64,000 nucleotides of DNA from Pleurotus djamor. Lineage: Eukaryota; Basidiomycota; Agaricomycetes; Agaricales; Pleurotaceae. Numbering within the stretch: position 1 is the first letter of the stretch; each line of letters opens with the position of its first letter. The translations under genes and the position numbers were made by a program. The stretch spans positions 1 to 64,000 of the forward strand of contig JAPEVF010000058.1 of assembly GCA_029747585.1 (NCBI GenBank). The letters run 5' to 3'. This document shows positions 30,875 to 59,002 of this stretch, one piece after another. Under the pieces are notes generated by a model that saw only the letters and a list, made by a program, of their open reading frames with translations, made no database searches and was not told the DNA's origin.

Positions 30875-33727
30875 ATGAAGGCCCTGTCTTTCCTTCCCCA
30901 CTCCATCATACCCGTCATCTCTCTGTCTCGCGTCTTTCTCGCGTATGCTTGTAGGTTCCAATCTCCAATCTCTGACAACTTGGCCTTATTCTTGTTCTAG
31001 CTCGCCACCATGACTTCCATCATAGTCGTCACACATCTCGCGCTGACTGTAGCTACATAGCCGTCGAATCTGGTGACGGTTGTGAATCATTGGCGACGCG
31101 CTGTGGTATCAGCGGCAACACTTTCATGGGCCACAACCCTGGCCTGGATTGCTCAACGCTCGCTGTTGATCAGGTTTGCAATTTCTCAGAATTTCCACTC
31201 TTGTCGCGTTTTGAGGAACGGTGCTTCAAATTCTCAGTGGGTCTGCTGCACCTCTGGTACCTTGCCTTCGAAGTAAGTAGACGTTGTCATGCTAAGGTAT
31301 CTTCTCCATTGCTTACCCACTTCTACCAGACGTCCTTCGCAGAACCCGGATGGTTCTTGCTTCGCCGTGGATATCGTTGAAGGCTCTGATTGTCATCAGT
31401 TCTCCGTTCGGTACGACGTCACCGCCTCCGAAATCGATTCTTGGAACTCTCAAACTTGGAGGTTTGAAACGTCCTCTTTTCCAGTTACATCCGGACTCAC
31501 ATCGTGTCTCTTACAGGTGGACTGGCTGCGGAGGACTACAGCCTGGGATGAGGATATGTATGTCATCGGGAACGGCGCCTCTGCCCGCACAGAATGCCAG
31601 TCAGTCGAATCCCTCTTTTTTACCCCTTGTTCTCTCAGGATTAATGCAGCCCCCAGGCATTCCATGTGGTCTCGAGAGCGTTGGAAACAAGCGATGTCCT
31701 CTCAACGCCTGTTGTGGAAAGTAAGTCTAGTATCTAAACTCGATACTGGTTCTAGAATCTTACGGCAGCGTCTGAAGATGGGGTTATTGCGGGCTCACGT
31801 ACGTGCCACCCTGCCTTCCGGATTTGATCCTCTTTGACATTACCTATTTCAGCGACGACTTCTGCGAGACAAATCCTGGTGGTGCACCTGGCACCGGGTG
31901 CCAATACAACTGCGAGAAGATCACTTCGTTCGACAATGTCGGAAGGACCAGCAGTCGGTGCTGATCCATCTTTTCCTCAGTCTCTTTCTCATCGCCCCTC
32001 CATCTCTCTAGGCGTCTATGGTCGAAACATCATCGGGTATTACAGCAACTGTGAGCACGATCGCTGTGTTTTTTCCCGATTACAGGGTAGCTGATCGCTT
32101 TGATGTCCACAGGGTCTGCACACAGACAATGTAACGGTGTTCCTAACTCTGTCCTCCCGGCTGTAAGACCCAGGGACTTGGACCCTTTCGCCTATACCCA
32201 CCTCGTTTACTCCTTCGCGTATGTATCTCGTGGTGACTGGCGCTTGCAAGAAACCCAATCGGACGACGCTACCCTTATCGCTGAACTTCAAGCTCTCAAG
32301 CAGCGCAATCCGAATCTTCGGACGATGTGGGCAGTTGGTGGTTGGGCTTTCAACGTAAGTACTCATCTTTTCATGACTGAATCCGTAACGCAAATCTCTT
32401 TCTTCCTTTCACAGGATCCTCCCACACAAGATATCTTCTCCCTCATGGCTCGTTCGTCCGCAAGTCGCTCTACCTTCATCACGAATGTCCTGAGCCAACT
32501 TCAGACGTATGGATTCGATGGAATGAATATTGTGCGTATCTGAGTAGCAGACCTTACTGCCTTGGTGCGAATCCGCTGACACAAATGCCTTAGGATTGGG
32601 GTATGTATTCCCGTTTCACCAAGATACGATGTCGAAGTCAATCGCTGATTGTACCCCATGAATCGTCCGTACAGAGTACCCTGGTGTGGAACGTGGCGGC
32701 ATGAAGCAGATGGTCAAAATTTCTTGGCCCTGATGAGGGAACTTCAAGCTCGTATTGCTTCTTCGGGACGACGTGTCGAGGTTAGCTTTACCGTTCCCGC
32801 ATCCTTCTGGTGGGTACATGGCCATCATTGATTGCGACTCCATAAGTTACTCATCACCACTTAGGTACCTGCAACAATTTCCGATCGCTGAGCTTCAGCG
32901 GTACACCACTTGGATCAACCTCATGACCTACGATATCCATGGCTCTTGGGACATCAAATTCAACACTGGCGTGCTCCCTCATACCGCCATCCCCGAAGTC
33001 AACGCAGCCGTCAACATGCTTCTCAAAGCCGGCGTGAGTCTTCCCAAAATCAACTTAGGAATAGGCTTCTACGGTCGATCATTCACGCTGGCGAATCCGT
33101 CATGTAACGTCGCCGGTTGTCCTATGAGTGGTCCTGGTCATGTCGGTCCCTGTACAGGTACGTTGCTGATTGACTCTTCGACGACGAGAAATCTCATTGC
33201 GGCTATGACCCTAGGCGGCGAAGGTTTCCTGAGCTACGGAGAAATCCAGTACTTGATTCAAAGTCGTGGATTATCCCCAGAGTACAACTCGACAAGCAAG
33301 ACGATGACGCTAAAATACGACGATCAGTGGGTTGGATACGAAAATCCCGCTACCATTGCCGAGAAGCTGCAATACGTACTCGCTAGACGGATGCCTGGAG
33401 TATTAATATGGGCCGTTGACCTTGACGTTGGGAATGCTCTTCAAAGCGCGGTAGGTTACTTTCCAACATGAACCATAGAAATTGTACTGATCCCGGTTGT
33501 AGGTCGTCGGTCATTCGTTGGCTCCTCCAGCGCAGCAAAATAACGACTGTCCTGCTGACGGCGTTTGGCCTCGTACCTCCCCAGGAAAAACCGCTTCGGT
33601 ACCGTGTACAAGCTCTGGAGGTCCTCACCGCACTCGGCTTTGCGGTGGTCCAAATTGGGCAGCACCCGTGGACGTCATGTGTGGCGCAAGTCAGTTGATG
33701 CTCGCAGCGTTCGGGCACTGTACGTAG
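30875..33727 (+). CDS. Subgroup-C GH18 chitinase with LysM and CBM18 domains
   Basis: ATG at 30875 gives a signal peptide (MKALSFLPHSIIPVISLSRV). A LysM follows (SGDGCESLATRCGISGNTFM ... NPGLDC), then a second, weaker LysM, then a hevein/CBM18 domain with the CCGKWGYCG core, then the GH18 barrel: IIGYYSNW, MWAVGGWAF, FDGMNIDWEYPG, FTVPASFWYL, YDIHGSWD and GVLIWAVDLD. A Cys-containing tail (ADGVWPRTSPGKTASVPC) as in killer-toxin-like fungal chitinases closes it; stop at 33727. At least ten introns are needed, one splitting the catalytic Glu codon. The DxxDxDxE motif reads D-G-M-N-I-D-W-E, with Asn for the first inner Asp. After ERGG (about 32700) the frame shifts by one base before DGQNFLALM, so it is either a pseudogene or an assembly error. 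It would cleave chitin outside the cell. Confidence 0.85.
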
Positions 33728-35401: not shown

Positions 35402-36721
35402 TTACTCGCTACATTCCTCCGTCAAAGTGGCTTTGACCACAACGGGTAAAACCCCTACACCATTCTCCATCAACAACGGGTCAAACAATTCGAAGCAAAC
35501 GCATACTCACCTCCAGTAGGAAGACCAAATGATGGTCGATCGATGCTAGCCAAAAAGCCGTTGATCATACCACTATGGGCTGTAACGGAGATGACTATGC
35601 CCCATACGCTCGATGAGCCGTGAAAAGGGATAGAGTAGAACGGAAACACGTACAGGTTCCCTTATCATGCGTGAAGACGTGATCAATGACTGTCTTGACG
35701 CGAGCCGCAACATGTTCAGAGGGTTCGCGGACATCAGGAGTCCAGAGTTCATCGTCCTGTGTAAACCCTTTCTCAAAAACGACCTCTCGGAACGTTGACC
35801 CAATGAACTCCTTCGATCGCCTCTGATCGCACGTGTGTACGCCATACTGTTCCCTACAAGCCTGCGAGCAATGCGGAATGAACACTCGAACGGGTACAGC
35901 CAAGCAAATGTGAACGTGACGTACCTCCATAACCAACGGTCGGCCAGCTTTCTTGAATCGGTTATCATCGGCAAAGGTAATTTCCCATGTACGCAGAGCT
36001 CTCGAAAGAGGACTGACGTACATTGCGTCGGGGATACGCAAACCATTGGCAAGCTCCGTTTGCCAGGCTGCCTTTGCGTTCTCGGCCTGGCTGACCCCAA
36101 GGGGGGTGATCTCCGCGTCGGCTACAAGTAATTTGGGGTAAGAGACAGTCAAAAGGAAAGTCATAAAGTACTCACGACCCCACACGATTTCGTCATCCCC
36201 GTCTAGCTTGGAATAAACNACTATGGGGAAGACTTCAGGAAGAATAATGCGAGAGGAGGGAAATGAGAACTCACGCATCCCACGCGGGGGTTCCGTATTT
36301 GGCTTCAGCTACGTTGTCTGTGACCGCTTTGTTACCAGGGACTCGATAGGTTCAAGGAACAGAGCTACGTACGAAACCCTTCGCCATGGCGACCCAAAAA
36401 GAAGAGTTTGAAGGAGGTCTTAGAGTCCGCATGATGGTTGAGTTTGGCTATGCGCTTGAAAAGGGTGTCCCATCGATCGTCCGAGGTATCGAGAAGACCA
36501 AAGCTTGGTGGGATCTAAGAGAGTATTTTTATCGGACAAGGGTAGGATGAAGAAGAAAATCACTCACGGGCTGGGAAACAGTCACGTTTGGGGTATCGTG
36601 GATGAAGAAACCCGGGACGGCCTATACATGATGAAATCAGGAAAGATGCGATGCTTTATGGGAAAATGATATGCACCTCATAGGTCCTTGAGAGCATCGT
36701 GAATGTACTAGCAAGCGCCAT
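35402..36721 (-). CDS. PMU1-like histidine phosphatase (copy B)
   Basis: Minus-strand exons from ATG at 36721: MALASTFTMLSRTYE, AVPGFFIHDTPNVTVSQP, IPPSFGLLDTSDDRWDTL...FFLGRHGEGF, HNVAEAKYGTPAWD, SKLDGDDEIVWG, DAEITPLGVSQAENAKAAWQ ... SRALRTWEITFADD, REQYGVHTCDQRRSKEFIG, WTPDVREP, ISVTAHSGMINGFLASI and VLPVVVKATL, stop at 35402. RHGE with a second His in TAHSG is the catalytic set of the histidine phosphatase/phosphoglycerate mutase superfamily; the VPGFF...RHGEG(F/Y)HNVAEA layout is that of yeast PMU1-type cytosolic phosphatases. An ambiguous base at 36219 sits at the start of one exon; leaving it out keeps the frame. About 290 residues, a normal length. The paralogue C lies inverted at 57.7 kb and a dead copy A at 12.7 kb. 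Confidence 0.85.
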
Positions 36722-39446: not shown

Positions 39447-40457
39447 ATGTCTGCCCCTACCGTTGAAACACCCGCTCAAGAGAATCTCTCGGTTCAACTC
39501 ACGGAGAAGGTTCGTATTTCTACCATTTCTCTCATCTTCATATCTAACGATAAATTTACATAGCCGTTGAGCAAAGATGTATCTGCCGGGCCATCTCCCA
39601 CCGAGAGCCCTAGCCGTCGAGCTCTCCTCCCTATCCAGATTGGAGTGGCCACAGAAGACAACCTCAACAATTCGACTGTGGCATCCGCCGCTGCCCAAGC
39701 TCAAGTAGATCCTGCTGCTGCGGACGAGAAGCAAGCGGACGATGGTGGCAAGATGAAGGCCAATGCGCCGACGAAGAAGAGCGCTCGGATCGCGCAGTCG
39801 AAGAAGAAGAATCAAGTCGAGGAGAAGGGCAAGGAGCTCACCCTCCCCGAAGGCGCACGCGTCATCTATCAGGACTACCGTCGTCTTCTCCATCCCCTCG
39901 ATCCAGCCGACGCTGAGACGGCTTCGATTACGCTCGCGGACGACGCAGTCGTCGACGATGTCAAGGAAGTCGTCGGCACCGGCGCTAAACCCAAGAAGAC
40001 GGGGGCCAGACGCAAGTCCACTGCCAATCTACGGGCTAGCTCCAAGGATGATACCGGTGCTACTCAGCCTCCCGCACCCGTCGTTAAAAAGGCTGGACGT
40101 GGGAAAGCAAAGGCCGCCGACGCTGCTGAACCGTCAACCAAGACCAAGAAAGCTGCTGCGAAGAAAACTGACCTTGACACCGACGCTCCTGCTGAACCAA
40201 AGCCCAAAGCGACTAAGGGCAAGAAAGCTGCCGCGAAGGAGGTCGTCGTTCCCTCTATTTCTGTTCGTGCTGCCACAGCGGGGAAAGGGAAGGGAAAGGC
40301 GAAAGAGATCAAGCTCAGTCGGTTCGCACCTGTCGCTGAGGGGAGTAATGCGGTCAAGCGCAAGGCACCAGAGGATGACGAAGAAGACGATGAAGACCGC
40401 AACGCTGGTGACGATGATGATGCCCGTCCATCCAAGAGGGTGAAGGTGGTCACTTAG
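39447..40457 (+). CDS. Lys/Ala-rich acidic-tailed nuclear-type protein (copy 1)
   Basis: Exon 1 (ATG at 39447) reads MSAPTVETPAQENLSVQLTE; a 55-nt intron follows; exon 2 runs to the stop at 40457, giving about 317 residues. The middle is rich in Lys, Ala and Pro with KKAAAKK, KGKKAAAKE and GKGKGKAKE blocks, as in histone H1-like or other DNA-binding linker proteins. The C-terminus has KRKAPEDDEEDDED followed by PSKRVKVV, a nuclear-localisation-like end. No folded domain is visible. Two paralogues lie at 54010-55036 (close) and 48781-49654 (distant), all with the same intron position. I infer a nuclear, perhaps chromatin-associated, protein; the exact role is unknown. Confidence 0.75.
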
Positions 40458-40459
40458 AC

Positions 40460-41800
40460 TCAATGATCATCAGGCCTCTGTGTGTACCAGGACACCTCGA
40501 AGCTCTGTATTTTACTTTCTCTTTGTTTGTTTTTGTATAGGTACTCTAGGATATATCTCCGTATATGATAATTATTAATTACACCATCCATCGTTGTATT
40601 CTTTCGTGGACTTCCTTGACCATCCTTCCATCCACCTTCGGTCGTCGTATACGTGTAAACCCCTCTCGCTTGTCTTCCATGTTCTTGCCTTGTCTAGCCA
40701 CGTTCACCGCATCTTTGGATAGATGCTTATTTCAAGTCTTCTTCATTGGTCTCGGTGAGTTGTCGTTTGATTACCCCGAATCTCCCATAATGCAAATTCC
40801 TAGTATAACCTTTCGTTCCTTGAGTTCTCAGTCCTTCACCCACTTGTATCCCTCACGGTCCGTTGAATGGGACATGTTAGGCAGCTCGAGATGAGGCTCA
40901 CAAACCTTCGAGGTACGACAAATAAAAGTTGTGTCACTTTGGTGTCAGTATCTGAAAGTGACTCCCTGTTTTTAGATGTTCCTCTAACGGCTAACAGTAT
41001 ACGCGGGCCCCGGCCGTTGCTCAGGCTGCATGAGACGGCCACTTCAAAGCAGCGTATAAAAGTTTAGTTGACAGTTGTATTCGGAGGTCCTCCCTCGATA
41101 CTCAGTCAGATGAATGTTCACCCATGGACACGAAGATTTTTCTTACAGCCAGGCTTCCAGGTAGCTGAAATCAAACGTATATCATCAGAATTGAATTGAT
41201 CGGATGTGTTGTTAAGTAGGTGAAGTGAGCATGCTGAAGGGGATGTAGAAGAAGCTTCGCACGTCGACACAGACTGTGGGTTGGACGAGATGGCGGTGAC
41301 CGCAGCCATGGATGGATCCTGGGAAGGAAGCCCAGGTGAGTCGCGAAGTTCTGAAGGTATACGTTTCATCGCCTCATTCTTAGACTGAGTCCTTGGGCTT
41401 CCTTCTCCTGTAAAAGTTTCTCGCCCCGCCCTACCAGAGCCATCATGATTGTGCCTTCTGTCTCTGATCAAATTGAAGATCACCCGTTTTAAATGTCAGA
41501 TTCCTGGCCTAGCGCTGGTATCAACACATTCGAAGACTCCTTTTAAACGCTGGTCGATTTTAGGGTATTGATTACTTCCATCGTGAACCTCATCAGGAAC
41601 CTCACATAATCCACAGCATTTAGATGACGCCGAGGTAGTCCGAATTTGCCGTGCCTATAGTTAGATTGCACGGTGAGTCGCCTTCTGGACGTCAGCGTCA
41701 AAGAACAACTTAAAAGACGGACACTTCAGGGCACCCCAGATGTCTAAGTTGCAGCTCCTTTCAAATCCCCACATCTGCTTCAAGTGATCCAATCGCGCTC
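40460..41800. other. Upstream region of small-gene copy 1, duplicated at about 45.07-45.65 kb
   Basis: From about 40870 the sequence resembles that upstream of copy 3 (from about 45070), for example around GGCAGCTCGAGATGAGGCTC and the later A/G-rich part just before the gene. A 122-codon minus-strand frame at 41118-41483 is not open in the duplicate, so I do not call it a gene. The first 300 bases hold the 3' end of the Lys/Ala-rich gene. Confidence 0.5.
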
Positions 41801-41803
41801 CTG

Positions 41804-42340
41804 ATGCCACCGCCCTCGAGTGAACGTCCCCTTACTCCCAACCCACGCGGCACTCCCAGTAGTATCGCCGGAGACTTTTACGCAGGGAACCAAAACGGCG
41901 GCAATGTTGGTGGACACGGTAACAATAACGCAATCATCCACCAGAATGATGGTGACTGCACCTCGTCACTAAACTAAGGGAATGCATGTTGACGTTGTTT
42001 TGTACTAGCAAATCTTGAAACGCTCATTGACAGCATAGGACTACAAGCGGAGTCGACGGCGATCACTAACCAAGATTTGTTTGCTTCCCTTTCAAAAATC
42101 ATGGGGGCAACCGACAAGTGTGTAGAGCTATTGGAAGCCGCTATGGAGCACGAGGCTACGATTCGAAACAGACGTAAGCTACTTGATTGCCGTATAGGAT
42201 TTTATTCAAGGCTAACCTACATACTTTCCAACAAAGTCGGGCTTCAACCGAGAGAGGTTGAAGTCAATTTCTCTAAAGTCAACAGTCCACCCAAGGAAGT
42301 CAAGCGAAACGCCTGGGCAAAGGCTCCCGGGCGTAAGTAG
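41804..42340 (+). CDS. Small Gly/Asn-motif protein, tandem copy 1
   Basis: Three exons: about 41804-41947, 42008-42173 and 42238-42340, with two GT...AG introns of about 60 nt at the same places as in copies 2 and 3. The roughly 135-residue protein has a Pro-rich start, a Gly/Asn motif (41885-41929: GN-x4-NV-x-G-x4-N, within FYAGNQNGGNVGGHGNNN), a helical exon (NLETLIDSIGLQAES, LFASLSKIMGATDKCVELLE, HEATIRNR) and a short basic tail. No signal peptide or membrane segment. The motif is of the kind that mediates homotypic amyloid signalling in fungi (PP, sigma and RHIM-like motifs), though it is not one of the named classes as I know them. An MLKL-like locus lies convergent, just downstream. Function is inferred, not shown. 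Confidence 0.75.
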
Positions 42341-42576
42341 AGTAGAGAAGGTGGCGGCGTTGATTACTCAGAAAGCTCAGGATTGATTTGATGAACAAGG
42401 TTTTCTGGATGAGGATTAGCAATATCTGCAATATACTGATGATTTGTGTTCACGAAATGTTGAAGGCCATGGCACATCCGACTCTGGTCCAGAGTATTTA
42501 CTAAAAATAGCGCAACAATCTCTGTCGCAAATTAGATGGCATATCCGTGATGGAACATGCGGTTCACACGTTGGTA

Positions 42577-43150
42577 TCAATGCCCCTTCTTGGCGACCAT
42601 AGAGAAAGAAGAAAAAGCGAGTCCCCTCTTGCTGAGTACCGGTGTACGGCGGCGGTGGTACTGTCTGGTAAGTGGCTGAATATACAAATCACTGAACGCA
42701 TAGAGTAGACGCCTATTGGTGAAGGCTGTAAAGCGAGCGTTCCTTGAAATGATGAATGGAAGATTACCGTAATGATGATAGCTATTATCGCTCTGTTTAC
42801 CGATCACATTGTTTACGATGCCGTTCCCATGATTCGTGATACAGACACTTGGGGTGCTGTTGTAGAGCGGGCATTGAGATAGGGTTCTCTCTATTCGCCC
42901 TAACACCGACTGTCGAGGAAAGCTGTAAAGATTACCAAACGATGGGCGATAGGTCAGCCATCTTAGACATAGCGCTTAATTTGAGTTCGATGCTCGCACC
43001 ATGAAGTACTAGTTTTGAGGTGCCTCTAACGTTTCTTGGTATTGCGCTATTTTCCTGAGATCATTACTCGATCCAAAAGGGTGCTTGAAATCTCTTCGAC
43101 CAACAGGCTGGTAGACGAGGTCATGTGTCGATCTGATCGTACGATGGCAA
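42577..43150 (-). pseudogene. Degraded MLKL-like locus with Gly/Asn motif (copy I)
   Basis: On the minus strand DFKHPFGSSNDLRKIAQYQE and LEAP match the fourth helix region of the fuller locus at 46671-47451, then a stop codon interrupts. Further on GRIERTLSQ...YNSTPSVCITNHGNGI and NNVIGKQSDNSYHHYG repeat the Gly/Asn motif (42784-42828). The first two exons of the helical bundle are missing: the sequence upstream of 43167 is instead a copy of the promoter block of the small secreted protein gene. An 11-nt length difference from copy II also shifts the frame. I read it as a truncated, probably dead copy. Confidence 0.6.
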
Positions 43151-43166
43151 ACCAAACTTAACTGAC

Positions 43167-43560
43167 CTTTTATACCGGTTCCGCGGACCAGACCAAGTTT
43201 CGTTGAATAGCTCGAGATGGGCAAGAGACCCCGAGGACTGAATCCTTAGACGAGTATTTTAGGAACGAGCATGAGGCAGGGACAATGTTTATAACCACGA
43301 GTCGCGACGGTTGATTGGTTCTGAACAGGGAAGTAAGTTGCTCCAATTCCGTAAGGGACGAACTTATCCAGCGGAAAAGCAGAAAGGTCGGCAATCTCCG
43401 AGCACGAGTTTCGTAACCGACCGCACAGCACTAAAAGCCAGCTCAAATGTTTCTGGTGGCTTCGTGCATCCAGTACCACGACTCTCAAGCTCTCTCAAGA
43501 CAGAACAACGATGTGGATCGACCGAAGTATGAGTTCATCGCCGAGTTGTGAATTGTAGTT
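43167..43560 (-). repeat. Dispersed promoter-like block, copy 2
   Basis: Close match of 34917-35330, with the TATAAAAG octamer at 43167-43174. It sits where the first exons of the MLKL-like copy I should be. Confidence 0.65.
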
Positions 43561-44094
43561 CGTTTGCCTACCAGTGCCGTGCTTCAACCGCGTACTTACG
43601 GGGTCTGTTTGGTCTCACGTACTCTATATGGACATATGGGGAACACTTGCAGTTCTTAGGAAGATATCGTGTATCATGGTGTGTGTGTGTGTTTCTCATC
43701 TCCGAGCTCTCGTCCACCTGCTGAAGAAACGTTTGCTCGAACAGGGTCCCCCCGTGCCATAGCTGTTTACAGCACTGAGGGTTCTTAGTCCCCCAATTCC
43801 TAAGCGATGGGAAGTCAACCAGAAGCCGGGATCAATTAAACACTATTCCAAGCGCTGGCCTTATCAGAGACATTCTTCCTGTAACATCACATTCACTCTT
43901 CGGAGTCATCGTGTAGCAAGGGACTCACACGTTGCACATCAGATGACGGTTGGCGGTTCCTCCGAGGAGACTATACTGCCCACATGGGTAGTCGTCTTGG
44001 TTGGCGTCAAAAAAGAACTTATAAAACAATCACTTCAAAGCTTTCATCGTCATCTTGCTTGCACTTCTGATTACCTCGACTTTTATCTGTCCTA
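43561..44094. other. Upstream region of small-gene copy 2
   Basis: No gene recognised. A (GT)-rich stretch at about 43680-43692 and a TATA-like CTTATAAAAC about 75 nt before the ATG at 44095 were noted. At the matching place copies 1 and 3 have CTTAAAAGAC and CTTGAAAGAC, so only copy 2 keeps a good TATA box. Confidence 0.4.
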
Positions 44095-44724
44095 ATGGAA
44101 CAGCCACTGAACGGACAGTCCTTGACCCAACACTCACCCCCTCTGAATGGCGGTCACGCTATCCAGGGAGACTACTATGCCGGGAATCAAACCGGCGGCA
44201 ATGTTGGCGGACACAACAACCAGAACTCAATCATCAACCAGGATGATGGTGAGTATACTCGTCGGCCCTTAATATGCCCAGGGGCTGAAGCTATACCTTA
44301 GCAAATCTTGAGACTCTTATTAAAAGCATCGGCATCCGGTTGGAGTCTTCGTCGATGAAAGACGAGGATCTGTTTGCCGCTCTTTCAAAACTTATTGGAG
44401 CAGCCGGAAAATGTCAAGAGCTCTTGGACCTTGCTGTGAAGCATCAGGCGACAATTCGAAACAAGCGTAAGTTACTGCATTCCTGTCCAGAATTCCATTC
44501 GCAAACTAAGTAACCTACCATTCACCAAAGTTGGGATTTCGTCCCCGCCGGTTATTCCTAATCTACCTGTTGCCGAAGTCAGGCTTCCGTCTACGGAGGT
44601 CAAAGCTAAACTACCTATTGCTGAAGTCGAGCATCTTCCTACCGAAGTTGAGGCTTGTCCACCTGTCGCAGAAGTAGCGCCTGGTCTTAAACCAGGCCGC
44701 CACCGTTTCTTGGGCATATTTTAG
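44095..44724 (+). CDS. Small Gly/Asn-motif protein, tandem copy 2 (diverged)
   Basis: Same three-exon plan as its neighbours: exon 1 to about 44248, exon 2 about 44302-44466, exon 3 from about 44531 to the stop at 44724. The motif at 44182-44226 reads GNQTGGNVGGHNNQN inside DYYAGNQ...SIINQDD. The helical exon keeps NLETLIKSIGI, LFAALSKLIGAAGKCQELLD and HQATIRNK. The last exon differs: it is longer and holds five short tandem units of the form LP-x2-EV (PVAEV, PSTEV, PIAEV, PTEV, PVAEV). Length is about 168 residues. It lacks a convergent MLKL-like partner, unlike copies 1 and 3, and is the most diverged copy, probably the oldest. Confidence 0.75.
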
Positions 44725-45658
44725 AAAAATGAGGCACTGTCTCAGCAACAGGCCAATCGTCTGGGAACATGCTGAATTTGTGTTGATAACAGATTTTTCT
44801 ATGTGGGGATCGTCAATATAATCTACTGGTCATTCCATTGGGTAGACTCCCATTGCGGGCATTCCCACCGGCTTTTTTATTACTCGTTTCGCGCGCTACC
44901 CTTCACTTGTCCCCATGATGTTGTTCAGCGCTCAACTCATGTCCAGCTAGGTCCTGACCACCCTCGATTATCTTCAACATGGAACCTCGGCGAGCCGTCG
45001 CATTTCAGGTGTCTCAGTCATGTCTCCAGACGTGTCACTCACGGATGGTGCTCTAAGTGCGCTGAACCTTGAAATGATAATGTAAGGTAGCTCGGGATGA
45101 AGCTCCTACTAGGACCTTCGGCACTGTGATTTGTGTCAGAATCTAACACTTACTTTCCACTCTACCTTTCTGAAGCTGCGAGCCTTGTCTGGCTGTCTCA
45201 CAAGTCTGTCAAATCTTCATTCAAAGTATCAGACCCATCGATCGGCTCATCCCTGGGGTTCCTTAGACTTCCTTCTCCTGTAGGATTTGATCGCTCCGTC
45301 TTACAGGAGCTGTTGTCAAATCGATGCTCACCTGTTTTAGGTGTCAGATTTCGGATTGCAGCCGCGCCCAGGGCTAGCGTCGTCACAATTGAAGACTTCT
45401 TTTAAACGCTGGTTGATTTGAAGTAAGTATTGATTACTTCCATTGGGAAGGTCCTCAAACAATGCATAGCATCTAAACGACTCCGAGGAGGTGGTTACAA
45501 TTTCCATGCTTATTTAGAGGACATGGTGAGTCACTTTTTTCAGCGCCAATGAAGAACTTGAAAGACGGACGGACACTTCAGGGCATTCCCAGGTGTCTAA
45601 GTCGCAGCTCCTTTCTAACCCCCACATCCGTTCCAAGCACTCCTCTCGCACACCCCTG

Positions 45659-46195
45659 ATGCCACAGCCCTCGAGTGAAGGTTCTCTTACTCCCTACCCA
45701 CGCGGCACTCCCGGTAGTGTTGCCGGAGACTATTACGCAGGGAACCAAAACGGCGGCAATGTTGGTGGACACGGTAACAAGAACGCAATCATCTACCAGG
45801 ATGATGGTGAGTGTACCACGCCGCTAAGCTAAGGGGAGACGTGTTGAAGTTACTTTGCACTAGGAAACCTTGAAACACTCATAGACAGCATAGGAATACA
45901 AGCGGATTCGACGGTGATCACTAACCAAGATTTGTTTGCTTCCCTTTCAAAAATTATGGGGGCAACCGACAAGTGTAGAGAACTGTTGGAACTGGCTATG
46001 AAGCATGAGGCTGCGATTCGAAACAGACGTAAGCTATCTTAGCGCCGCGTAGGATCTAATTCAACGCTGATCTCCATACTATCCGACAAAGTTAGGCTTC
46101 CACCAAGAGAGGTTGAAGTTAATCCCTCTAGAGTTGAGAGTCCACACAAGGAAGTCAAGCAGAACGCCTGGGTAAAGGGTCCCGGGCATAAGTAG
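45659..46195 (+). CDS. Small Gly/Asn-motif protein, tandem copy 3
   Basis: Near-duplicate of copy 1: exons about 45659-45805, 45863-46028 and 46092-46195. Motif at 45740-45784 (GNQNGGNVGGHGNKN within DYYAGNQ...IIYQDD). Helical exon NLETLIDSIGIQADS, LFASLSKIMGATDKCRELLE, HEAAIRNR; short basic tail ending at the stop 46193-46195. Most differences from copy 1 are single bases, and intron lengths are equal, so the duplication is recent. The frame is open further upstream to an ATG at 45593, but in copy 1 that extension is broken, so I prefer 45659. The MLKL-like locus II is convergent about 480 nt downstream. Confidence 0.75.
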
Positions 46196-46670
46196 AGAAA
46201 CTGGAGGTGTAGTTTATTCAGCGAGCTCTAGGTTTATTTTAGGAGGAGAGAAGGTACAAGGTTTTCTGAGAATTAGCACCATTTGCGACGTATTGATGAT
46301 TTGCATTCGAATTTCGGAGAAGCTCGTGAGACATTCCGTCTATACTCTTTCCAAAAATAGTGCGACAACGGAGAACAGCTCTGTGTCGTAGGTTAGAAGG
46401 CAAATTCATGATGGAACATGTGATTCATATGTTGGGATCATTGCTCCTTCCTGGGGAGCGGAGAGATCCACCCTGGTGAGGATCCTAGCAAACAGATAGC
46501 TTAGAGCCGGGACAAGAGAGAGAAAGAGGAGAGTCATCTCTTGTTGAGTACCGGTAGAACTGTCTAGTGAGTGGCTGAATAGGTAAGAAGTCACTGGACG
46601 CAGAGACACCTATCGGCAAAGGCTGTAGAGCGAGCCTCACTTCTTTAAAAAATGATGAATGGAAGTTTAC

Positions 46671-47451
46671 CGTAATGATGATAGCTATTATTGCTCTGTT
46701 CACCGGTCACATTGTTGTCGATGCCGTTCCCATGATTCGTGATACAGACGCTTGGGGTGCTATTGTAGAGCGGACCTTGAGATAAGGTCCTCTCTATTCG
46801 GTCAACTGTCGCCCTAACACCGACCGTCGAGGAAAGCCGTAAAGATTACCAAACGAAGTGTGATAGGTCAGTCGCATTAGACATAGCGTCTAATTGGAGA
46901 TCAAGATTCGTACCTTGAAGTGGGCCTCTAGCGTTTCCTGGTATTGCAAAATTCGGCTGAGATCTTTGTTCGCCCCGAAAAAGCGCTTGAAGTACCCTCG
47001 GACAGACGAGGTCGTCTAATTGTACTGTGGAGCACCGAGAAGTAAGTGTCAAAAATTGGGTGATGAGAAGGCACGAAGACCAAACCTTAGAAGTTTGTCG
47101 ATGTGCGAGCGGAAACTTTGTGGTGTTTCCGAACCAGACGTCGCAGTTTGCTTGTGTAAGGGGTCCGAAGCAATCTGTATTACATTGCCAGCAGTGTATG
47201 CGAGGTCGATAAACACCTTTTTGTTCTGCCTGACTTGTTGTCAGAATGCACGGAGAGCTTGCGTGAGATGAAGACACAGGGATTTACAGGCACCTCACCG
47301 AGACTTTGTGAAAGACCTTCAGCGCAAGCTGGGCTGCGACGGCTACGGCTGGAAATGGGACCACTTCAGAGACAGAAAGCAGGAGTTTGAGAGACGAGAT
47401 AATGTCATCTGGTATGGTGTCTAAAGTGGATTGGAGTCCAGGATCGATCAT
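46671..47451 (-). CDS. MLKL-like helical bundle with adjacent Gly/Asn motif (copy II)
   Basis: ATG at 47451 opens exon 1 (to 47299): DTIPDDIISSLKLLLSVSEV and VPFPAVAVAAQLALKVF, the first helix pair of the MLKL-NTD-like fold. Exon 2 (47225-47096) gives NKKVFIDLAYTAGNVIQIAS and SFRSHIDKLL. Exon 3 gives FKRFFGANKDLSRILQYQET and LEAHFKV, the RFL...D...I...L signature of the fourth helix. A stop follows at 46890-46892 unless spliced out. Only 6 nt later an ATG (46884) begins MSNATDLSHFVW, spliced to a stretch with CITNHGNGIDNNVTGEQS and NNSYHHYG (motif 46687-46731). The motif may therefore be the C-terminus of the same protein through an intron I could not place, or a separate tiny reading frame. 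Such bundles insert in membranes and execute cell death in related fungal proteins; that role is inferred here. Confidence 0.55.
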
Positions 47452-48780: not shown

Positions 48781-49654
48781 TCATTCAGCATCGGGTACGA
48801 CCTTCGCCTTCTTGGACGGACGACCATCGTCGTCACGGTCTTCATCGGCAACGACTCCCTCATCGTCCTCCACCGCCTTGCGTTTCCCCGGCTTGCTCCC
48901 CTCGCTAGTGGGAGCGGCTTGCTTCAGTTCTTTTTCCTTCTCCTTTTGTGTGAAAGCCTCGATGGCAGGTCTCAGCTTATCAAGAACATGCTTGACGGTG
49001 GCATGGAAAGCAGCATCGTCAGACTGTTGTGAGACAGGAGCGGGCTTCGTGGAAGGGCCGGCGCGTGAACGAGGAAGAGGAGGTGGAGGCATAAATCTGA
49101 GGGGTACCGTCCTCCGTCTGGTAGCGGTGGCCACAACCGCACGTTCCGCTAGAGCCACCGAAGAGGTCGAAGGTATGGATTTGGCGGGCACTGGATCCGG
49201 GAGGGCTGCCTTTTTCTCAAGCTGTGCCTTTTTCATATCCTCGAAGCAGCGTATGATCGGGCGGAGGAGATCCTTGGTTTTCTTCTCCCTCTCCAGCTGT
49301 TCAGGAGTAGGCTGGTTGTATCTCTGCCTAGCTCGCGCAATAGCAGCCCTCTCCTTGGTAGGATCCGGCTCTTTGAGATCACGCAACAGGCCCTTCTCGC
49401 GCTCTGTGGGTATAAACGGGAGCGTGGTCACTCTAAGGTAGGGATACCCCAAATACGGGTCTGGGAGATCTTCGGACAGAGTGGTCTCGGTGGGAGGTGG
49501 ACTGGTAGGTTCTTCTTGAATTGACGGCTATGCGAAGTGTGGTTAAGATGCTGTGCTTAGCGCAAAAGACAATGATACGAACCTGGGCCACAATTTGGTT
49601 CTCATTGACGGATGTATCCTCTTCGTTAGGGATCGTAGTCGTAGGGGGAGACAT
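48781..49654 (-). CDS. Lys/Ala-rich family protein, diverged copy 3
   Basis: ATG at 49654: MSPPTTTIPNEEDTSVNENQ, an intron at the same place as in copies 1 and 2, then PSIQEEPTSPPPTE and a long exon to the stop at 48781; about 270 residues. Unlike its relatives the middle lacks KKAAAK blocks and instead has charged helical parts (RAAIARARQRYNQPTPEQLE, LLRPIIRCFEDMKKAQLEKK) and a Pro-rich linker. The C-terminus returns to the family pattern: KRKAVEDDEG...DEDRDDD then PSKKAKVV. Family membership rests on the start, the intron and this tail. It lies in the spacer between the two arms of the inverted duplication. A nuclear location is likely from the tail; the role is unknown. Confidence 0.7.
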
Positions 49655-54009: not shown

Positions 54010-55036
54010 CTAGTTGTCAACCTTGGCCCTCTTCGACGGACGACGGGCATCATCGTCACCAGCGTCACGGTCTTCATCGTCTTCTTCGTCATCCTCTGGT
54101 GCCTTGCGCTTGACTGCATTACTCCCCTCAGCGACAGGTGCGAACCGACTGAGTTTGATTTCCTTGGCCTTTCCTTTCCCTTTCCCAGTTGCGGGAGCAC
54201 GGACAGAGATAGAGGGAACGACCTCCTTCTTCGCTGCAGCTTTCTTGCCCTTGGCTTGCTTGGGCTTCGGATCAGTGGGAGCGTCGGTGTCGACAACGGG
54301 GTTCTTCGCAGCGCCTTTCTTGCCCTTGGTTGACGGCTCAGCAGCGACGACGTCGTTGTCGACGATGACCTTTGCTTTGCTACGTCCAGTCTTTTTGACG
54401 ACAGCGACAGCAGGCTGAGTAGCCTCAGCAACGTCCTTGGAGGAGCTAGCCCGGAGATTGGCGGTGGACTTGCGTCTGGCAGCGGTCTTCTTGGTTTTGG
54501 CGCCGATGGCAACGACCTCCTTGACATCGTCGACAACGGCGTCGTTCGCAGGCGCCACGGAGGCGGTCTCAGCGGCGGCTGACTCAGTAGGGAGGAGTAG
54601 ACGGCTGTAGTCTTGGCAGATAATTCGTGCTCCTTCGGGGAGAGGGAGCTCCTTGTCCTTGTCCTCGACTTGCTTCTTCTTCGACTGGGCGATGCGAACA
54701 CTCTTCTTCGCCTTCGCGTTGATTTTCTTCTTGTCAGAGTCCTCTTTCTTCTTCTCATCAGCCGTAGCGGGATCTACCTGCGCCTTGGCGACGGTGGAAA
54801 CCACAGCCGAATCATTGTGGTTCACATCTGTGGCCACTCCGACTTGGGTGGGGAGGAGAGCTCGACGGTTGGGGCTCTCGGTGGGGGGTAGCCCAGTGGA
54901 CATGTCTTTGCTTGACGGCTGTGCAAATTTCAATTCAGAAATGCGACGGAGGAACAATTACAAGAGTACAAACCTTGTCAGTGACTTGGATCGAAATATT
55001 CTCTTGAGCGGGGGTTTCAACGGTAGGGACAGACAT
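54010..55036 (-). CDS. Lys/Ala-rich acidic-tailed nuclear-type protein (copy 2)
   Basis: Close paralogue of the gene at 39447-40457, inverted. ATG at 55036: MSVPTVETPAQENISIQVTD, intron of about 55 nt, PSSKDMSTGLPPTESPNRRA, and on to the stop at 54010; about 320 residues. Shared blocks: GARIICQDYSRLLLP, DDVKEVVAIGAKTKKTAARR, KSTANLRASS, KGKKAAAKK, GKGKGKAKEIKLSRFAPVAE, KRKAPEDDEEDDED and PSKRAKV. Differences are scattered substitutions and small in-frame indels in low-complexity parts, so both copies look functional. It forms a divergent pair with the PMU1-like gene at 57696, as copy 1 does with its own. Probably nuclear; no enzyme domain is visible. Confidence 0.75.
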
Positions 55037-57695: not shown

Positions 57696-59002
57696 ATGGT
57701 TGTACGATCATACGAAGTACATCTCACCATCAAATCATCAGCGGTGGCTGGTCTGATTTGGACACTTGATTGCAGGCCGTTCCGGGTTTCTTTATCCACG
57801 ATATCTCAAACGTGACGGTTACTCAGGCCGTGAGTTCGTGATGTCTTCGCTTCGGTTCCTTTCCTCATAAAAATAACCTCCTAGATCCCACCGAGTTTTG
57901 GTCTTCTTGACACCTCGAAAGATCGATGGGAAACGCTCTTCCAGCGCGTAGCCGATCTCAACCAGCAGGCCGACGCGTTGACATCTTTCAAGCTATTCTT
58001 TCTAGGGCGCCACGGCGAAGGATTCCGTGAGTCGCCTTCCCTTTGGACCGCATAGACTTCTGACTGATGAAGCTGTGCAGACAACGTCGCTGAAGCAAAG
58101 TACGGAACACCCGCTTGGGATGCGTGAGTTCCGTCGTCTATTGCCAGCTATGCTCATAAAGGAACATATCCATAATAGGTATTGGTCCAAGCTTCACGGG
58201 GATGGAGAGATTGTGTGGGGGCGTGAGTATTTCCCTACCCTCTCCAAGCGAATGCCATCTTAAACTCAAAACTTATGACTTACATACTTACAGCCGACGC
58301 GGAAATCACGTCGCTCGGAGCTCTTCAAGCCGAGCATGCAAAAGCAGCCTGGCAAACCGAGCTACCAAACGGTCTGCGCATCCCCGACGCCATGTACGTC
58401 AGCCCTCTCTCAAGAGCTCTGCGTACATGGGAGATCACCTTCAGCGATGATCCACGGTTCAAGAAGGCTGGTCGGCCGTTGGTCATGGAGGTATGCCCCT
58501 CCCTTTCTCCAATTGTTTGCGTATCAAACCTTCACGAATCGCTGGTTTTTAGGCTTGTAGAGAACAATTCGGCGTTCCATGCGATCAACGACGCTCAAAG
58601 CAGTTTATCGGTTCAACCTTCCGCGATGTCGTCTTCGAGCATGGTTTCACGGAGGAAGATGAACTCTGGACACCCCATATCCGCGAACCATTCGAAGACG
58701 TTACGGCTCGCGTCAAGACGGTTATTGATCATGTATTCACGCATGAACAAGGAACATGTGCGTATCTGCATATTGTTCTCTTTCTTTTTTGCTGTCCATC
58801 TGACTCTTCGGGTGTATGCCAGTCATCTCTGTCACGTCGCATAGCGATATGATCAATGCCTTCTTGGCTAGTATCGGTCGTCCATCATTTTGTCTCCCCA
58901 CTGGAGGTGAGTACAAGCTCAGCTTTCCCNTTTTTTCCTCCGTTACTCATTACGATTGACGTAGGAGTTCTTCCGGTCGTGGTGAAGGGTACCTTAGTGT
59001 AG
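57696..59002 (+). CDS. PMU1-like histidine phosphatase (copy C)
   Basis: Exons parallel copy B: MVVRSYE, AVPGFFIHDISNVTVTQA, IPPSFGLLDTSKDRWETL...FFLGRHGEGF, HNVAEAKYGTPAWD, AYWSKLHGDGEIVWG, DAEITSLGALQAEHAKAAWQ...SRALRTWEITFSDD, REQFGVHACDQRRSKQFIG, WTPHIREP, ISVTSHSDMINAFLASIGRP and VLPVVVKGTL, stop at 59000-59002. The catalytic RHGE and the second His (TSHSD) are intact. At the place of copy B's start codon this copy has ATA, so translation would begin at the next in-frame ATG (57696), eight codons later and before the conserved core. An ambiguous base at 58930 lies in an intron. Likely a cytosolic phosphatase for a small phosphorylated metabolite; the substrate is unknown. Confidence 0.85.

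Follow-up and report, generated by a model that had tools for sequence, protein, structure and literature searches.

Three small genes and two MLKL-like remnants

The window analysed here is a 64 kb stretch of the pink oyster mushroom Pleurotus djamor, taken from a 55.9 Mb assembly and corresponding to positions 1–64,000 of contig C951 (contigs are given below as C plus a number). It carries three small genes on the forward strand (g1, g2 and g3) that encode a glycine/asparagine (G/N)-rich motif, termed M2, and two MLKL-like loci on the reverse strand with a second such motif, M1, in their tails (Table 1). The original prediction, made from the letters of the window alone, had joined these loci by a single pattern, GN-x4-NV-x-G-x4-N, into a candidate amyloid cell-death module, with the small proteins as seeds or adaptors of an MLKL-like executor. 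Six-frame translation of the window returned five exact matches to this pattern, each where it had been predicted, and none was found in residue-shuffled six-frame translations (0/200). The observation is thus confirmed and its interpretation was partly right: a candidate module exists in which small G/N-motif proteins adjoin MLKL-like genes with a G/N-motif tail, whereas neither the single motif nor a working executor in the window was borne out.

The genes g1, g2 and g3 are real genes with a common layout: in each, one exon encodes the motif and another the helical part, and the tail is variable. The exons of g1 are open, have GT/AG ends and encode M2 followed by a short helical domain; its allele on C668 is annotated as ONZ45_g10306 (P0002), in which the annotated last residues differ. 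For g2, the splice model was 100% identical to the annotated ONZ45_g3511. The ratio of nonsynonymous to synonymous substitution rates (dN/dS) was 0.29 between g2 and g1 and 0.22 between g2 and g3. The AlphaFold model of g3 contains helices at residues 50–63 and 70–104 with a predicted local distance difference test (pLDDT) score of about 85–91, and its motif part was modelled with low confidence and without secondary structure. Such a helical hairpin after a low-confidence motif would be compatible with an amyloid motif, though it is no evidence for one. A fold search with this model gave 61 matches, none at E ≤ 0.001.

Both MLKL-like copies in the window are broken. In the coding parts of remnant 2, several indels break the reading frame, and the other-haplotype counterpart of remnant 1 (C668:47868-48367) likewise retains exons 3–4 only. 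The predicted duplication of the pairing held, because the repeated block contains both the small gene and the 3′ part of the MLKL-like locus.

Table 1. Features of the small-gene/MLKL-like region (window coordinates)
Feature	Position	Strand	Details
Duplicated unit A	41468..43089		g1 + 3′ part of remnant 1; 73.8% identical to unit B
g1 small gene	41804..42340	+	3 exons, 41804-41951, 42009-42173, 42237-42340; 138 amino acids
M2 in g1	41867..41935	+	69.1 bits, position-specific scoring matrix (PSSM)
MLKL-like remnant 1	42653..43153	-	similarity to exons 3-4 only
M1 in remnant 1	42775..42837	-	PSSM 67.9 bits; among matrix-building sequences
g2 small gene	44095..44724	+	170 amino acids; M2 motif, helical domain, repeat-like tail
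M2 in g2	44164..44232	+	PSSM 70.2 bits
Duplicated unit B	45316..46991		g3 + 3′ part of remnant 2
g3 small gene	45659..46195	+	138 amino acids; paralogue of g1; annotated ONZ45_g3512 (P0004)
M2 in g3	45722..45790	+	PSSM 70.6 bits
MLKL-like remnant 2	46648..47451	-	aligns with all four exons of open C951:92.7-93.7 kb gene, 83% DNA identity
M1 in remnant 2 (exon 4)	46678..46740	-	PSSM 69.3 bits; among matrix-building sequences
Pattern matches in small genes	41885-41929, 44182-44226, 45740-45784	+	GN-x4-NV-x-G-x4-N
Pattern matches in MLKL-like loci	42784-42828, 46687-46731	-	GN-x4-NV-x-G-x4-N

Two motif classes and the proteins that carry them

Instead of one motif shared by both strands, we found two separately conserved classes, M2 on the forward and M1 on the reverse strand, whose similarity lies within chance. 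M2 (GDxYAGNxxGGNVGGxxNxNxI) occupies the N-terminal part of the small proteins and is the best conserved portion of them: of the 23 columns that are invariant across the seven rows of alignment A3 (the g3 row of which has a misjoined third exon; P0004 is the annotated version), 13 fall within it. M1 (GxGxxNNVxGxQ) is encoded by the final exon of MLKL-like genes. Few stretches of these proteins, which are 32–72% identical overall to the first row of their four-row alignment (A5), are as well conserved, and M1 is in effect their conserved tail. The exact pattern GN-x4-NV-x-G-x4-N fits only 4/19 M1 and 6/19 M2 instances. When 265 kb were scanned in six frames, an M1 matrix built from the tails only gave nine matches at ≥10 bits, all of them MLKL-like tails (eight being sequences used to build the matrix), and the M2 matrix gave 16 matches at ≥14 bits, all at M2 small-gene loci. 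In the same scan no M1 was found in g1–g3. As judged by these position-specific scores, the two classes separate cleanly.

Both classes resemble PP/RHIM-type motifs in being short, rich in G/N/Q and of a proposed homotypic role. Unlike those motifs, they are without the NxGxQxGxN core (absent from 19/19 M1 and 19/19 M2 instances); the original prediction had not recognised the motif as one of the described classes (HET-s, sigma, PP, BASS). The PUASM core FxGxGxQxxGxGxF was likewise found in 0/19 M1 and 0/19 M2 instances. These counts of 19 omit C807:137k (which holds X), C472/C809, C544:62.9k and several allelic copies, and the M1 of C289 was omitted from the later M1 sets.

A profile of the M2 genes (A3) searched against 5.8 billion proteins retained 10 of 2,291 candidates, eight of them from Pleurotus (P. 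djamor, P. eryngii and P. pulmonarius). The weakest of these matches, P0011 from P. pulmonarius (E 0.048), carries M1 directly before M2. Although this protein was recovered through the M2-gene profile alone, the tails-only matrix scored its M1 at 37.2 bits, against a maximum of 12.4 bits in 1,000 whole-protein shuffles (0/1000) and of 22.2 bits in 5,000 local shuffles of the G/N-rich stretch; its M2 reached 65.8 bits, whereas shuffles gave at most 7.9. P. djamor itself has tandem proteins of this kind, two on C787 and one on C100 (0/1000 each), the C100 stretch recurring at C840:27 kb, and a weaker one on C289 (21/1000), so that four of five tandem proteins reached 0/1000 in the M1 shuffle test. 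Since M1 was found in them by the tails-only matrix, it is independently detectable. Its co-occurrence with M2 in four proteins places the two motifs, on the evidence of sequence, in one protein network. Several carriers of M1 or M2 are of small size and probably form coiled coils, and no Pfam family reaches its cut-off in them.

A single-sequence search for wider homologues kept 2 of 63 candidates, both from P. djamor. Corresponding clusters of M2 genes and short coiled-coil-like frames lie at C564:18.8-23.3 kb and C544:59.3-63.1 kb; the M2 scan found three of the genes in each, and both have one more, C544 at 62.9 kb and C564 at 23.0 kb.

M1 also occurs near the N-terminus of proteins in which a helical stretch is followed by a ubiquitin-like ULD_2 domain, on C393, C1160, C537 (two) and C835, and starts at residue 7–12 wherever the first methionine is clear (three proteins). 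The domain (PF22893, cut-off 24.5) scored 54.2 bits in C1160 (E 1.7e-14) and 64 bits in C537 (E 1.5e-17), both readings being tested as joined exons. A census of ULD_2 yielded 10 matches at nine places, with M1 upstream of five. A matrix built from the ULD_2-type M1 scored the nine MLKL-like tails at 19.5–34.9 bits, and the tails matrix scored the five ULD_2-type N-termini at 32.6, 26.3, 24.2, 10.5 and 6.1 bits. M1 is also present in C625/C1269 and at C835:10k, with a ULD-like stretch recognised by eye in C625. Separately, a frame of 127 amino acids at C807:136900-137540 (L067) has an N-terminal M1 and a hydrophobic, membrane-anchor-like end, and C807:139 kb, at a distance of 1.5 kb, holds a second M1 frame.

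Open MLKL-like genes and their M2 neighbours

Beyond the window, open four-exon models of the MLKL-like gene were obtained at C951:92.7-93.7 kb, on the other haplotype in C1049, and twice on C963, one of these two models having a tentative start codon. The C951 gene (+) adjoins an M2 small gene (-) at C951:90.4-93.7 kb, about 45 kb from the pairing in the window, and this open pair is repeated on the other haplotype at C1049:4.75-8.1 kb. The convergent orientation that had been predicted therefore applies to the window, whereas the open pairs are divergent. By a rough estimate, the chance that at least one of three executor clusters falls within 5 kb of any of four small-gene clusters in 28 Mb is 0.004, with the clusters counted after the fact. 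The M1 matrix scan detected no other M1-bearing gene on C951, C668 or C1049.

The two alleles of the open MLKL-like gene are 77% identical in DNA. They differ by no indel in exons 1–3 and by a single 3-nt insertion before the end of M1 in exon 4; from about 20 nt past M1 there are many frame-breaking indels, and many indels lie in the introns. Given this distribution of indels, purifying selection maintains the helical part together with M1. The dN/dS of the pair was 0.31 (dS 0.53), one allele pair having been tested. In the adjoining M2 genes of C951 and C1049, the motif exon had a dN of 0 with no amino acid change, and the helical exon had a dN/dS of 0.04. The allelic ratio of about 1 for g1 contrasts with this M2 gene beside the open executor gene.

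The name MLKL-like is a weak, working label given from sequence. We take the sequence pattern of these genes to resemble a basidiomycete MLKL/adaptor domain, and the helical domain might form a four-helix membrane-active bundle. A protein search with an MLKL-like query kept 1 of 1,721 candidates, from P. djamor.

A tentative signalling system and its alternatives

Building on the observed gene models, the motif classes with their distribution and tandem co-occurrence, the neighbourhood and the selection on one allele pair, we tentatively propose that the locus belongs to a Pleurotus signalling system based on two short G/N-rich homotypic motifs and working like the HET-S/NWD2 amyloid signalosomes, a reading to which we would give slightly less than an even chance. 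The MLKL-like helical proteins with their conserved M1 tail would be membrane-killing executors, and the M2 small proteins (g1–g3 and relatives) seeds or sensors that nucleate assembly, their helical hairpin responding to, or being assembled by, an upstream trigger. The M1-M2 coiled-coil proteins would act as bridges that convert an M2 assembly into an M1 template, onto which M1-tailed executors would be recruited to permeabilise the membrane; ULD_2 proteins with N-terminal M1 would provide a second input. Templated assembly would be the simplest such mechanism, and in the window the executors have decayed, with the small genes kept. Amyloid formation by M1 and M2, like their self-assembly and interaction, the killing and the direction of the signal, is something we infer. 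A fully specified relay is unlikely as a whole: NLR (NOD-like receptor)-independent amyloid death signalling running from an M2 seed through an M2-M1 adaptor to an MLKL-like pore protein by way of its M1 tail, and ULD_2 proteins serving as alternative M1 inputs. Such a relay would be RIPK1/RIPK3-like with two orthogonal motifs, its executor decayed here and its seeds retained.

The closest known layout is that of HET-S/NWD2, HELLP/PNT1 and HELLF, in which, according to PMC12881547 and PMC7889193, the executor has a C-terminal motif, the partner an N-terminal one, and the genes are neighbours. Like these systems of Podospora (Ascomycota), the Pleurotus family carries a motif at the C-terminus of its putative helical executor and one at the N-terminus of larger partners, its motifs are about 20–25 residues long, and its executor gene adjoins a motif-bearing small gene. 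Unlike them, its partners are small helical or coiled-coil proteins and ULD_2 proteins instead of NLRs, the adjacent gene carries the other motif class, the two classes are joined in bridging proteins, and both the amyloid and the executor fold are putative. We looked for a same-motif partner in the adjacent gene, as in HET-S/NWD2, and found that the M1 executor adjoins M2 genes; for this reason the family is not classed as a member of that group. Its mode of working may still be similar, and if the amyloid step holds, it would be a variant of the known amyloid signalling type.

Among Agaricomycetes, PMC9815663, which centres on NLR partners, describes amyloid-like motifs and two species, Moniliophthora roreri and Fibularhizoctonia, where the same motif is found on NLRs and at the C-termini of MLKL-like proteins. 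That study reports no neighbouring pair for these and no motif-sharing neighbour for Basidiomycota MLKL-like proteins; its same-contig case, in Sphaerobolus, has a HET-s-type motif with the genes at least 95 kb apart. The family described here resembles the NLR05/08/22/29/44 meta-family and BaMLKL motifs of that study in its host group and in MLKL-like C-termini that share an amyloid-like motif with other proteins; it differs in having a neighbouring pair and partners other than NLRs. M1 could itself belong to one of the motif classes of that set. None of the listed titles and opening abstract lines, from open-licence literature on Pleurotus djamor genomes, Pleurotus incompatibility, basidiomycete MLKL, signalling amyloids and ULD proteins, described this family. 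PMC7889193 poses the existence of NLR-independent fungal signalling amyloids as a question. The locus family offers a concrete candidate in a cultivated mushroom genus: its motifs are defined, its executor genes are open, partners lie next to them, and two-motif bridges occur naturally. If the proposal is true, the amyloid death switches of moulds would have a mushroom counterpart in this family.

A number of results weigh against this proposal. The MLKL assignment is one of them: MLKL_N (PF22215), the family implied by the original prediction, was matched below cut-off in only 2/4 members (15.0 bits for the first member versus 27; best E 0.0022), and WAPL scored slightly above it for one member, although the sub-threshold alignment is colinear and near-full-length for the member shown. 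Profile search of the PDB gave four matches to designed or unrelated helical proteins and no MLKL/HeLo chain. Smith-Waterman tests against the one clear MLKL_N protein of the genome, on C1097, were not significant (z -0.25 to 1.36), a profile test against it found nothing, and the AlphaFold model of the P0003 fragment (pLDDT 45) was too poor for use. Treating M1 and M2 as a single motif failed as well, with an hhalign probability of 0.6 (per cent; E 0.096) and 175 of 2,000 column permutations at least as good as the observed likeness.

Other points concern the partners and their constraint. No M2 gene was detected on C808 or C963, which carry other M1-tailed MLKL-like genes, and the two C951 pairings, 45 kb apart, may have a common origin. 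M1 at ≥5 bits was absent from three of the eight ULD_2 places read (C1261, C47 and C58; C535 was not among the eight, and C47 has a look-alike by eye). A fusion to NACHT was not found either, neither M1 nor M2 occurring in the 530 bases read at and before 5 of 27 NACHT matches (ranks 1–4 and 6), so an NLR partner did not emerge from these. Selection on g1 and g3 is not clearly purifying: g1 differs from its C668 allele by seven amino acids and nine nucleotides (dN/dS 1.04), changes too few for concluding relaxed constraint, and the motif exon gave dN/dS values of 1.53 for g1–g3 (12 nucleotide differences) and 2.79 for g3 versus its C668 allele (10 nucleotide differences).

The best-surviving alternative, which we regard as rather unlikely, is that M1 and M2 serve for binding or as scaffolds without forming amyloid, being beta-turn or condensate-forming segments that unite helical, coiled-coil and ubiquitin-like proteins outside cell death, the likeness to MLKL being generic. 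It accommodates the MLKL_N and WAPL scores, the small, probably coiled-coil carriers and the unstructured motif region of the g3 model, but not so readily the placement of M1, which is that of amyloid signalling motifs (the C-terminus of helical proteins and the N-terminus of larger ones with several domains), and composition alone does not explain the matches. Quite improbable, in our view, is that the M2 small proteins inhibit the executor or act as its decoys, capping or buffering it in an antitoxin-like manner, the three M2 genes being a relic or a protection from executors at other loci or in other nuclei: the executor is without the M2 class, and M1, to be expected in a capping partner, is absent from g1–g3, even though the small genes persist beside broken executors in the window and the M2 gene adjoining the open executor gene is under very strong constraint. 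Still less probable is that there is no module, the pairing having arisen incidentally when parts of a repeat-rich, rearranging region were duplicated locally, and the G/N-rich motifs having converged; units A and B are indeed one duplication and the region is rich in repeated blocks and haplotype rearrangements, but the pair recurs at C951:90-94 kb and on C1049 in the other orientation with selection on both genes, and a second Pleurotus species has a tandem M1-M2 protein.

The haplotypes are strongly rearranged in this part of the genome, with inverted and transposed blocks at about 82–97% identity between C951 and C668/C1049. C668:16.5-32 kb is almost without counterpart in the C951 sequence compared and contains an extra M2 small gene at 17.3 kb and, at 18.8 kb, a lone second exon. 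The M2 gene of the open pair is followed by an FAD-dependent oxidoreductase-type gene at C951:88.6-90.1 kb. Within the window, three frames at 39564-40454 (+), 48784-49527 (-) and 54013-54957 (-) resemble one another in their Lys/Asp-rich end (KRKA.EDDE...RPSK) and have no Pfam match at E ≤ 0.01; a 74% identical repeated block holds two of the three. Duplicated histidine-phosphatase-like genes occur at 35598-36308 (-) and 58227-58841 (+), the His_Phos_1 cut-off being reached by the first only, and a glycosyl hydrolase family 18 (chitinase-type) frame is found at 32737-33468 (+; E 2.9e-26).

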